Below are positions 25,676 through 31,819 of a stretch of 64,000 nt of DNA, piece by piece. Position 1 is the first letter of the stretch. Each line of letters begins with the position of its first letter. Position numbers and translations under genes: made by a program. The DNA is from Periplaneta americana. Its lineage: Eukaryota > Arthropoda > Insecta > Blattodea > Blattidae. The notes beneath the pieces were generated by a model that was not told the DNA's origin, did no database searches, and saw only the letters and a program-made list of their open reading frames with translations. The stretch is taken from the NCBI RefSeq assembly GCF_040183065.1, contig NC_091124.1, positions 99,094,501-99,158,500 of the forward strand. The letters run 5' to 3'.

Positions 25676-27871
25676 CAGGGAAAGGATTTATATGTAAATA
25701 CATATTTACTTATAAAGCTAATATAATTTATATTTTGCATTATCTTTATGTTTCACAATGTGTAGGGTTGAAAAATCCTACTTTTATTTTCCATATTTTT
25801 CCATATTTTAGAGTTTAGTACATATTTTCGTTAATTTCCATATATTTTCCATATTTCATATAAAACAGTCCATATTATATTAGGTTTAACAATAAAACAA
25901 AACAAAATTCCATTAACTTTTAAAAATACATTTCAACAATAGAGATTTAAACACATGTTCAGTAATCCCTTTAACATCAGAGTTATTTGAAAATTAGCAG
26001 TCCTATCAACAATGGGAAAGTAAGTTACAAAACTGTATTAATTTAATTTAAAATTTTTAACAGACTTCAGTTGTGCAGCTCAACAGTTAAATGCCAGTCA
26101 GAGTACACATAGGTTCAGTTTTGTAAATCATACTATAAAGACGGTAAATATGCCAAAAGTACGTCATTCAGTCAATTTAAAATCAAAACTAACAAGTTAC
26201 ATTTCAGAATTTAAAGAAGATGGTTTATCAACTGACAATAAAATATTATTTTGTAATTTGTGTCAGTGTGCAGTATCATCTACACAAAAGTTCCTGGTGC
26301 AACAACACATTACAACTAGTAAACATCAGGCCAACAAACAACTAAATTCCAAGCAGAGACAATTGTTTTTAACACAACCAACAACATCGAATGTAAGATC
26401 TGAGTTTAACATCGACCTGTGCCGTTCTCTCATCTCTGCTGATATTCCTCTCTACAAACTAAAGAATAAGGTCTTCAGGGAATTCCTTGAAAAATATACT
26501 CAACATACAATCCCGGATGAGTCAACACTTAGGAAGACGTATGCTCCATCCATCTACGATGAGACAATACAGAAGATAAGAGATGAAATTAAAGATAGTT
26601 CAATTTGGGTTTCCATTGATGAGACTCCCGACAAAGAAGGTAGACTTGTTGGTAATGTAGTTATCGGTTTGTTAAGTGAACAATATTCTGAACGAATTCT
26701 TTTACATTGTGATGTTCTAGAAAAGTGCAATAACAAAACTATAGTTAAACTGTTCAACGAAGCTATGGGTATCCTGTGGCCAAAGGGTATTATGTACGAT
26801 AATGTGTTATTCTTTATTAGCGATGCTGCCCCTTATATGGTCAAAGCTGGACAAGCATTATCTGTTGTATATCCTAAATTGACTCATTTTACTTGTGTGG
26901 CGCATGCATTTCATCGTGTGGCAGAAGTGGTCAGAGACAATTTCCCTAAAGTAGATTTGTTGATTTCATCAGTGAAAAAAGTATTTCTCAAAGCTCCCAG
27001 TAGAGTTAACGTGTTGAAAGAAATGTACCCTGAAATTCCATTGCCACCAAAGCCAATTTTAACTAGATGGGGTACATGGCTAGAAGCAGTTGAATATTAT
27101 GCCGAACATATAGACTCTATTAACAATGTTCTCCTTGCATTGGACTCTGAAGATGCAGTCTCAATTGATACTGCGAAAACAGTTACCTGTGACATAAGTG
27201 TGAAGAATGACTTAGCTCACATTCAGCATACATTTTCATGCATCATAAAAACGCTCAAAAGTCTCCAAAATAGGCACCTTTCACTATCTGAAAGTTTTGA
27301 AATTATAAATAGTACTGTGGAACAACTGAATCGTGGTAGAGGTAAAGTTGCAGATGCAGTAAGAGCTAAGGTGGACACTGTACTTTCAAAAAACCCTGGA
27401 TATGAAGAACTACAAAAGGTTGTTGCTGTGATGAGTGGTGAATCAACAGTGAAGATTAACTTGGACTTATCCCCAGCAGACATTGTGAAATTGAATTATG
27501 TACCAGTTACTTCTTGTGACGTCGAACGCTCTTTTAGTCAGTATAAATCTATCCTCAGAGACAATAGAAGAAGATTCACTTTTCAGCACTTGAAAGAAAT
27601 GTTTGTAACCTATTGTTATGGTAACAGACAATAAAAATTGTGTTTTGTTGAAACTACATTGGAAGATAAGGTACGTCCATTATATTTTTTGTTTAGTTTG
27701 ATTAAAATGTACCAATATTTAACGTACATAGTCATTTTTTTATAATTTTAAGTCCATATTTAATTCCATATTTTGGTAAAAATCCATATTTAATTCCATA
27801 TTTTGGTAAAAATAACTACATATATATTTACATATTTCATATATTTTTAGTCCATATAAATCCGTTCCCTG
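25676..27871 (+). mobile_element. Intact hAT transposon, copy 1
   Basis: 2196 bp with 19-bp terminal inverted repeats (CAGGGAAAGGATTTATATG at the left, inverse of CAGGGAACGGATTTATATG at the right, one mismatch) and a perfect 8-bp target duplication GTTATCAT (25668-25675 and 27872-27879). It holds one uninterrupted transposase frame. The copy at 29624-31819 has the same length and appears identical. Subterminal TCCATATTT motifs are numerous, and a 30-bp unit ending TTGGTAAAAA is duplicated near 27752-27811. Confidence 0.97.
26150..27634 (+). CDS. hAT transposase, copy 1 (CGGBP1-like N-terminus)
   Basis: 494 codons, intact. Residues 35-59 form a BED/C2H2-like finger (C35-x2-C38, H53-x5-H59) resembling that of CGGBP1, which is itself hAT-derived. 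The RNase H-fold core shows WVSIDETPD (about 153-161, first Asp), [10 protein letters not shown] (Asp225), the hAT-type CVAHAFHR (249-256) and LTRWGTW (305-310). The C-terminal dimerisation region includes [18 protein letters not shown] (Glu459 is the likely third acid). All expected elements are present, so it could encode an active cut-and-paste transposase, though it is shorter than many hAT proteins. The start is the first ATG after a leader of about 470 bp. Confidence 0.93.
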
Positions 27872-27990
27872 GTTATCATCTTCTTTAAACAAATAGTTGG
27901 TTAAACAGTTTGCAATGTCACAAGATCCACGCTTTGCCATAGTTTTATCTCCTACATACATTGTAGAACCTCCCCTTTCCCTTTGCCTTA
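27872..27990 (-). pseudogene. Transposon-protein remnant, upstream half (disrupted by hAT copy 1)
   Basis: On the - strand it encodes MYVGDKTMAKRGSCDIANCL and TNYLFKEDD up to the hAT insertion. The TMAKRGS-DI-(N/S)CL wording precedes the C-x-G-x-NKN motif by about 30 residues in this protein group, matching the other half at 25515-25667. Confidence 0.6.
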
Positions 27991-29623: not shown

Positions 29624-31819
29624 CAGGGAACGGATTTATATGGACTAAAAATATATGAAATATGTAAATATATATGTAGTTATTTTTACCAAAATATGGA
29701 ATTAAATATGGATTTTTACCAAAATATGGAATTAAATATGGACTTAAAATTATAAAAAAATGACTATGTACGTTAAATATTGGTACATTTTAATCAAACT
29801 AAACAAAAAATATAATGGACGTACCTTATCTTCCAATGTAGTTTCAACAAAACACAATTTTTATTGTCTGTTACCATAACAATAGGTTACAAACATTTCT
29901 TTCAAGTGCTGAAAAGTGAATCTTCTTCTATTGTCTCTGAGGATAGATTTATACTGACTAAAAGAGCGTTCGACGTCACAAGAAGTAACTGGTACATAAT
30001 TCAATTTCACAATGTCTGCTGGGGATAAGTCCAAGTTAATCTTCACTGTTGATTCACCACTCATCACAGCAACAACCTTTTGTAGTTCTTCATATCCAGG
30101 GTTTTTTGAAAGTACAGTGTCCACCTTAGCTCTTACTGCATCTGCAACTTTACCTCTACCACGATTCAGTTGTTCCACAGTACTATTTATAATTTCAAAA
30201 CTTTCAGATAGTGAAAGGTGCCTATTTTGGAGACTTTTGAGCGTTTTTATGATGCATGAAAATGTATGCTGAATGTGAGCTAAGTCATTCTTCACACTTA
30301 TGTCACAGGTAACTGTTTTCGCAGTATCAATTGAGACTGCATCTTCAGAGTCCAATGCAAGGAGAACATTGTTAATAGAGTCTATATGTTCGGCATAATA
30401 TTCAACTGCTTCTAGCCATGTACCCCATCTAGTTAAAATTGGCTTTGGTGGCAATGGAATTTCAGGGTACATTTCTTTCAACACGTTAACTCTACTGGGA
30501 GCTTTGAGAAATACTTTTTTCACTGATGAAATCAACAAATCTACTTTAGGGAAATTGTCTCTGACCACTTCTGCCACACGATGAAATGCATGCGCCACAC
30601 AAGTAAAATGAGTCAATTTAGGATATACAACAGATAATGCTTGTCCAGCTTTGACCATATAAGGGGCAGCATCGCTAATAAAGAATAACACATTATCGTA
30701 CATAATACCCTTTGGCCACAGGATACCCATAGCTTCGTTGAACAGTTTAACTATAGTTTTGTTATTGCACTTTTCTAGAACATCACAATGTAAAAGAATT
30801 CGTTCAGAATATTGTTCACTTAACAAACCGATAACTACATTACCAACAAGTCTACCTTCTTTGTCGGGAGTCTCATCAATGGAAACCCAAATTGAACTAT
30901 CTTTAATTTCATCTCTTATCTTCTGTATTGTCTCATCGTAGATGGATGGAGCATACGTCTTCCTAAGTGTTGACTCATCCGGGATTGTATGTTGAGTATA
31001 TTTTTCAAGGAATTCCCTGAAGACCTTATTCTTTAGTTTGTAGAGAGGAATATCAGCAGAGATGAGAGAACGGCACAGGTCGATGTTAAACTCAGATCTT
31101 ACATTCGATGTTGTTGGTTGTGTTAAAAACAATTGTCTCTGCTTGGAATTTAGTTGTTTGTTGGCCTGATGTTTACTAGTTGTAATGTGTTGTTGCACCA
31201 GGAACTTTTGTGTAGATGATACTGCACACTGACACAAATTACAAAATAATATTTTATTGTCAGTTGATAAACCATCTTCTTTAAATTCTGAAATGTAACT
31301 TGTTAGTTTTGATTTTAAATTGACTGAATGACGTACTTTTGGCATATTTACCGTCTTTATAGTATGATTTACAAAACTGAACCTATGTGTACTCTGACTG
31401 GCATTTAACTGTTGAGCTGCACAACTGAAGTCTGTTAAAAATTTTAAATTAAATTAATACAGTTTTGTAACTTACTTTCCCATTGTTGATAGGACTGCTA
31501 ATTTTCAAATAACTCTGATGTTAAAGGGATTACTGAACATGTGTTTAAATCTCTATTGTTGAAATGTATTTTTAAAAGTTAATGGAATTTTGTTTTGTTT
31601 TATTGTTAAACCTAATATAATATGGACTGTTTTATATGAAATATGGAAAATATATGGAAATTAACGAAAATATGTACTAAACTCTAAAATATGGAAAAAT
31701 ATGGAAAATAAAAGTAGGATTTTTCAACCCTACACATTGTGAAACATAAAGATAATGCAAAATATAAATTATATTAGCTTTATAAGTAAATATGTATTTA
31801 CATATAAATCCTTTCCCTG
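29624..31819 (-). mobile_element. Intact hAT transposon, copy 2 (inverted)
   Basis: Same 2196-bp element as copy 1 in the opposite direction. Coordinates of every landmark sum to 57495 between the two copies, so there is no indel between them. It has its own perfect 8-bp target duplication CTAATAAT (29616-29623 and 31820-31827) and lies inside the reverse transcriptase of an old LINE. Confidence 0.97.
29861..31345 (-). CDS. hAT transposase, copy 2
   Basis: 494 codons, residue for residue the same protein as copy 1, with the BED-like finger, the DDE-type acidic residues and the C-terminal dimerisation region all intact. The untranslated ends that I compared by eye also match. Identity despite different insertion sites points to very recent transposition. 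Both copies lie in TMEM179 intron 2. Confidence 0.93.

Follow-up and report, generated by a model that had tools for sequence, protein, structure and literature searches.

Two identical hAT copies in the window

The window analyzed here is a 64-kb stretch of the genome of the cockroach Periplaneta americana (C8:99094501-99158500), taken from an assembly of 3,231,669,367 bases in 91 contigs. It carries two complete copies, A and B, of a 2,196-bp DNA transposon of the hAT superfamily, each of which is flanked by its own target-site duplication (TSD). The positions of the copies and of the duplications around them are as follows:

25668..25675, +, left TSD of copy A, GTTATCAT, a perfect 8-bp duplication
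25676..27871, +, hAT copy A, complete, 2,196 bp, identical to copy B, with the ends CAGGGAAAGG...CCGTTCCCTG
27872..27879, +, right TSD of copy A, GTTATCAT, a perfect 8-bp duplication
29616..29623, +, left TSD of copy B, CTAATAAT, a perfect 8-bp duplication
29624..31819, -, hAT copy B, complete, inverted, 2,196 bp, without a single difference from copy A
31820..31827, +, right TSD of copy B, CTAATAAT, a perfect 8-bp duplication

When copy B was reverse-complemented and compared with copy A base by base, 0 differences were found over the 2,196 bp of each, and both copies encode the same 494-residue transposase. The initial annotation, which had described two identical, intact elements, was therefore correct on this point, and its view of the copies as two independent insertions is borne out by their separate perfect TSDs, GTTATCAT and CTAATAAT. 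The two copies are independent hAT insertions, lying in opposite orientation, 1.75 kb apart. The spacer between them measures 1,752 bp with the two inner TSD copies counted in. A repeat search of positions 24000-34000 returned the pair (25669-27876 / 29619-31826) as the longest of three inverted pairs, with perfect inverted arms of 2.2 kb and a loop of 1.74 kb. Throughout the window, 92 pairs of CAGGG...CCCTG lie 60-6000 bp apart, and an 8-bp duplication, one mismatch being allowed, accompanies only the two that delimit copies A and B, which excludes chance. Since the outer 8-mers differ and each copy is enclosed by its own TSD pair, the locus appears to bear no trace of a block duplication, or of recombination between A and B that turned the spacer around.

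Within each copy, terminal inverted repeats, subterminal arrays of the motif TCCATAT, and one long open reading frame (ORF) were located:

25676..25694, +, left terminal inverted repeat of copy A, matching the right end at 18/19 bases
27853..27871, +, right terminal inverted repeat of copy A, paired with the left end
31801..31819, -, left terminal inverted repeat of copy B, sequence as in copy A
29624..29642, -, right terminal inverted repeat of copy B, sequence as in copy A
25790..25875, +, left subterminal array of copy A, five TCCATAT motifs
27753..27857, +, right subterminal array of copy A, five TCCATAT motifs and a 30-bp tandem repeat
31620..31705, -, left subterminal array of copy B, TCCATAT motifs as in copy A
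29638..29742, -, right subterminal array of copy B, TCCATAT motifs as in copy A
26150..27634, +, transposase ORF of copy A, 494 aa, a single open frame, Pfam DUF659
29861..31345, -, transposase ORF of copy B, 494 aa, the same protein with an identical translation

The two ends pair at 18 of their first 19 bases (CAGGGAAAGGATTTATATG / CAGGGAACGGATTTATATG). The TCCATAT motif is present 10 times in the non-coding ends, five times per side and in one orientation throughout, and 0 times in the ORF; at least 10 occurrences were reached in 0 of 2,000 first-order simulations. In Pfam, the transposase matched DUF659 at 2e-12, which passes the cut-off, and Dimer_Tnp_hAT at 0.025, which is under it, while no CGGBP1 model was present in the Pfam result for this protein. 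Only two matches were obtained among PDB sequences, both weak (E 0.12 and 0.45), and a single-sequence structure prediction yielded an unusable fold (predicted local distance difference test score, pLDDT, of 37). A BED-like finger of the form C-x2-C...H-x5-H occupies residues 35-59 (C35..H59) and has a leucine at position -2; two prolines are present in the region after the finger. Further along the protein, the motifs SIDETPD (155), FISDAAP (222), CVAHAFH (249), RWGTWLEA (306), and CDVERSFS (456) follow one another. We take D157 (in SIDETPD), D225, and E459 (in CDVERSFS) to be the putative catalytic residues; together with the CxxH and RW motifs, they stand in a hAT-like order.

Copy B interrupts a remnant that resembles a long interspersed nuclear element (LINE), parts of which are seen on both of its sides:

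29383..29623, +, 5' flank of copy B, frameshifted LINE-like remnant of a reverse transcriptase, with an approximate outer limit
31828..32044, +, LINE-like remnant, 3' side of copy B, RVT_1 at 2.4e-9 (two stops read as X), outer limit approximate

When the flanks of copy B were joined with one TSD, an open reverse-transcriptase frame ran across the junction; when they were joined with two TSDs, the frame was broken. The piece from 29383 onward had no Pfam match on its own. A paralogous empty site for copy B was found 0 times in the genome at no more than 3 mismatches in 43 (the site of copy A was not searched), so the restored reading frame is the sole empty-site evidence.

Size, completeness, and target sites of the family

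Further copies were counted in the whole assembly with 40-mers from the left end, the ORF middle, and the right end of the element, at no more than 3 mismatches, and with the reversed patterns as controls. The left 40-mer occurred 7,083 times (3,574 + 3,509), the middle 7,065 times, and the right 7,074 times, while the reversed controls occurred 0 times each. The left-end, middle, and right-end counts thus agree within 0.3% of 1:1, and the family amounts to ~0.48% of the genome if all copies are full length. The search of the whole assembly, as proposed by the initial annotation, yielded ~7,000 near-identical copies, mostly intact in the sample described below. The published P. americana assembly PAMFEO1_priV1, based on HiFi and Hi-C data, has a size of 3.23 Gb in 91 scaffolds and a GC content of 35.5% (PMC12774602); the GC content of the window is also 35.5%. 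The portions of that article available to us give DNA elements as 24.3% of the genome, name Tc1-mariner and hAT as the most abundant ones at a Kimura level of 5%, and contain no mention of a 7,000-copy hAT family (PMC12774602). Literature searches, mostly at the level of listings, returned no published description of such a family.

Several counts bear on the completeness of the copies. On contig C1, 100 exact left ends were listed, a list that omits copies with a mismatched left end; 92 of them pair with an exact right end, 91 at a distance of 2,166-2,226 bp (68 at exactly 2,196) and one at 2,417 bp, and an exact middle is present for 95. A sample of 20 copies was then taken in list order; they lie within the first 11 Mb of C1 and were selected for an exact left 40-mer but not for their inside. 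All 20 were approximately full length (2,177-2,226 bp), the match being lost after position 2184 in one copy, L073. The 494-aa frame was retained in 17; in the others it was broken by a 1-bp indel in the ORF (two copies) or by an early stop at residue 415 (one copy, which also has a 6-bp insertion). The TSD of copy A, GTTATCAT, was found on 22 copies over 11 contigs, and five of these (on C2, C5, C11, C15, and C16) were fetched; all five were 2,196 bp long, with both TSDs and an intact frame. Altogether, an intact 494-aa ORF was present in 22 of the 25 fetched copies. In a protein search of the genome, the best 87 of 56,070 first-look candidates were scored, all of them on C1, and 87/87 were identical and uninterrupted over 494 residues. 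No short copies were met among the copies fetched or end-paired. The 19-base end pattern, to which both ends conform, occurred 13,936 times in exact form, compared to 14,157 ends counted by the 40-mers. Being slightly rarer than the 40-mer ends, it leaves no room for a family of miniature inverted-repeat transposable elements (MITEs) with exactly those ends; this exclusion covers exact ends only, families with diverged ends being outside its scope. The family appears to consist of ~7,000 copies, nearly all of them full length, with very few deletion derivatives, and this is the unusual part of the finding.

For the study of insertion sites and divergence, 48 distinct copies were aligned, comprising the 2 of the window, 26 from the protein search, and the 20 taken in list order. 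A perfect TSD was found in 45 of the 48. The consensus NTNATNAN was present in 37 of these 45 TSDs, against a background of 1.1% of window positions; a central AT was found in 45/45 and a central TA in 0/45. Target sites of the Ac group of hAT elements follow the consensus nTnnnnAn, and those of the Buster group nnnTAnnn. Measured against these general consensuses, the cockroach element is like the Ac group in its 8-bp TSD with T2 and A7 (37/45) but unlike it in the additional, invariant central AT (45/45); it shares the 8-bp TSD with the Buster group but differs from it in lacking the central TA altogether (0/45).

An 8-bp TSD (in 45/48 copies, and in both window copies) and short terminal inverted repeats (18/19) are hAT features. 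In one survey, the superfamily is characterized by terminal inverted repeats of 10-25 bp and a length of 2.5-5 kb, and is divided into two main groups (PMC3942097). At 2,196 bp, the cockroach element is slightly short by this measure of length, which is typical and not strict (PMC3942097). According to Yellan et al., hAT-19/CGGBP1-like elements are recognized by zf-BED Cys/His residues with Leu at -2 and by two prolines in the Hermes DNA-binding domain, and two insect hATs of this kind (from Rhodnius and Locusta) have AT-rich binding motifs (PMC8097297). The cockroach element resembles them in its BED-like finger with Leu at -2, in its AT-rich subterminal motif, and perhaps in the two-proline region that follows the finger (PMC8097297). 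It may thus be a new hAT-19/CGGBP1-like member of a known superfamily, a lead at the level of motifs rather than of phylogeny.

A decayed relative of the same hAT clade is located in the window at 14195-15091 (-), with tblastn matches of 5e-25 and 8e-12 at 33-62% identity. It is split by a repeat at 14707-14947, SINE-like (resembling a short interspersed nuclear element) in our own reading, which recurs near 37759, 42790, and 59150.

Divergence of the family and origin of the pair

Among the 48 aligned copies, 70 of 73 variable sites are private, and copies A and B represent the commonest sequence. In the 20 list-order copies, the number of substitutions per copy had a mean of 1.9 and a variance of 1.88 (index of dispersion p 0.47). 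These values include one hand correction, L073 having been counted as 3 and not 10 since its 3' end stops matching after position 2184. The ratio of nonsynonymous to synonymous changes in the same copies was 18:5, compared to 3.65:1 expected without selection. Divergence was ~0.09% per copy; a value of 8.2e-4 per site was obtained from 30 copies, including these 20, over their first 1,540 bp, and the share of exact middles (6,888/7,065) corresponds by arithmetic to ~6e-4 substitutions per site across the whole family. Like A and B, 4 of the 20 list-order copies have zero substitutions, one of the 4 having a 19-bp deletion. The alignment indicates that the family is star-shaped, with one founder sequence, a short young burst, and neutral decay thereafter. 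The mutation rate of the fly is 2.8e-9 per generation; at this rate, the burst would be about 0.3 million generations old, though the rate of the host may differ. The decayed relative at 14195-15091 suggests that the clade is old in the genome, although its 7,000-copy family is young.

The initial annotation had concluded that transposition was very recent. The young family and the intact transposase support this conclusion, but the idea that the identity of A and B marks a special event is not supported, for 4/20 other copies are without substitutions and the substitution counts fit one common age. The pair was also considered remarkable for its 1.75-kb spacing; however, ~27 consecutive pairs this close are expected among 7,083 copies. 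By chance alone, ~27 neighbours would lie within 1,744 bp of each other genome-wide, ~13-14 of them inverted. The 100 listed positions on C1 are spaced at random (Kolmogorov-Smirnov, KS, p 0.92): 1 of 99 gaps is under 10 kb, with 2.1 expected, and 0 of 99 are under 5 kb, with 1.0 expected. The orientations of neighbours on C1 are +- in 27 cases, -+ in 27, -- in 23, and ++ in 22. The window pair is most likely a chance neighbourhood that needs no special cause; given the random spacing and the ~27 close neighbours expected, neither a local hop nor a composite or hairpin function has to be invoked. A second tail-to-tail inverted pair was seen among the 100 listed positions, at C1:28502522 and 28511435 (span 28502522-28511474), with ~4.6 kb between the copies.

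Copies A and B are very probably ordinary members of a very young, very large autonomous hAT family, which grew from one founder to ~7,000 copies, nearly all full length; they would be independent insertions brought together by chance. Other origins of the pair were weighed against this one. Maize Ac often hops locally around replication, and one copy could have begotten the other through such short-range transposition. The identity of A and B, their distance of 1.75 kb, and their opposite orientation agree with a local hop, and the chance of finding two copies in a given 64-kb window is only 0.9%. We nevertheless consider it unlikely, since spacing of the 100 copies is random (both the gaps under 10 kb and the KS test), ~27 equally close neighbours are expected genome-wide, and the identity is uninformative because both copies are merely without private mutations. 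The perfect 2.2-kb arms and the 1.74-kb loop could also make the inverted pair a unit, either as a 6.1-kb composite transposon, a possibility already raised in the initial annotation, or as the source of a hairpin transcript feeding small-RNA silencing of the family. This is quite improbable: the outer 8-mers, GTTATCAT and CTAATAAT, differ, so the 6.1 kb have not transposed together, and ~13-14 inverted neighbours are expected by chance. Near-identical inverted repeats can convert each other, and the arms of the pair, as repeats of that sort, might be older copies held identical by gene conversion. Conversion is unneeded, however, as copies megabases off and on other contigs are nearly as close; the TSDs of A and B are unswapped, and no variants common to A and B but absent elsewhere were seen among the 48 aligned copies, which makes this origin highly improbable. 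Two perfectly identical long repeats could, finally, be an assembly duplication or a polishing echo. The likelihood of such an artefact is next to nil, for the flanks and the TSDs differ, the reverse-transcriptase frame is continuous across the joined site of copy B, other copies have private substitutions, and the public assembly was made from HiFi reads (PMC12774602).

That the family is transposing now, and not merely recently, is conceivable, given the 494-aa ORF in 22/25 copies and the 4/20 copies without substitution, but we are inclined to doubt it: the substitution counts fit one common age (p 0.47 after hand correction, in a small sample), and strong continuing activity would yield more zero-change copies.

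In a young family of this kind, the transposase would presumably bind the TCCATAT arrays and the CAGGG ends, by analogy with the biochemistry of the hAT superfamily. It would then excise the element and insert it into AT-rich sites of the form NTNATNAN, of which 8 bp are duplicated; the structure and the target were observed, and cut-and-paste movement is the probable route. The founder may have arrived as one sequence, perhaps from outside. A search for a virus carrier gave 4 stretches with a pattern in a protein scan of IMG/VR, none of which was confirmed, and 0 matches in an exact 40-mer scan. Because internal-deletion derivatives are very rare, copies may have been gained mainly by transposition around replication, and not by error-prone gap repair, which is the weakest step of the scheme. 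For Rhodnius prolixus, the Rpmar0 mariner burst is reported to have produced 8,041 copies in total. Deleted copies were a minority there, and they include 118 short ones that form a group as well as the lineage Rpmar35, with 195 copies, which transposed in its deleted form (PMC4678618). The cockroach family is similar in that one lineage of DNA transposons expanded explosively and recently in an insect, with few deleted copies; in contrast to Rpmar0, it belongs to another superfamily, its ends-to-middle ratio is within 0.3% of 1:1, and no short copies were met.

A number of points tell against this account. The aligned set includes 26 of 48 copies picked for perfect protein identity, and only copies with an intact left end entered the fetched sample, 20 of the 25 lying within the first 11 Mb of a single contig. 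If the hand correction is left out, the substitution counts are overdispersed (mean 2.25, variance 5.1). A mutated or truncated copy may lie at C1:29063026, the one left end among the 100 listed for which both the exact middle and the exact right end are missing. Replication-linked copy gain has the rarity of deletion derivatives as its single ground, and a short family life, or immobility of deleted copies, would explain that rarity equally well. Local clustering was not observed (0/99 gaps under 5 kb, 1.0 expected), unlike the classic prediction of local hopping in S phase.

We tentatively propose, as a rather doubtful possibility, that the family reached ~7,000 copies, of which ~6,000 would have an open transposase frame (extrapolated from 22/25), almost without producing internal-deletion derivatives or MITEs. 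If this is true, copy gain hardly uses template gap repair, or only full-length copies are mobilisable, and the family departs from the common pattern in which a DNA-transposon burst is taken over by non-autonomous copies. The family is a natural experiment, with ~7,000 near-identical, full-length copies and star-like neutral divergence in a laboratory animal, and it permits high statistical power in studies of insertion preference, copy-gain mechanism, silencing, and present activity. It also puts to the test the view that successful bursts of DNA transposons are dominated by their non-autonomous derivatives.

Other features of the window

The window was scanned for Rfam families and tRNAs, with 0 matches. 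Two overlapping frames at 32999-34052 (+), ~1.2 kb away from copy B, contain a Tc1-like transposase (HTH_Tnp_Tc3_2 at 1.4e-17 and DDE_3 at 1.6e-15), probably a frameshifted copy. On the other side of the pair, inverted or direct repeats of 250-370 bp with 87-93% identity are found within 20974-24910 (at 20974-21331, 21443-21727, and 24542-24910). Another LINE-like remnant, at 46825-48063 (+), has an RNase H match of 3.1e-17 in the second of its two adjoining open frames. Diverged tandem repeats of ~39 bp (CGCATGCTCAGTATTCCAAG-like) form two arrays, at 1611-2092 and 2842-3491, with 63-64% matches.

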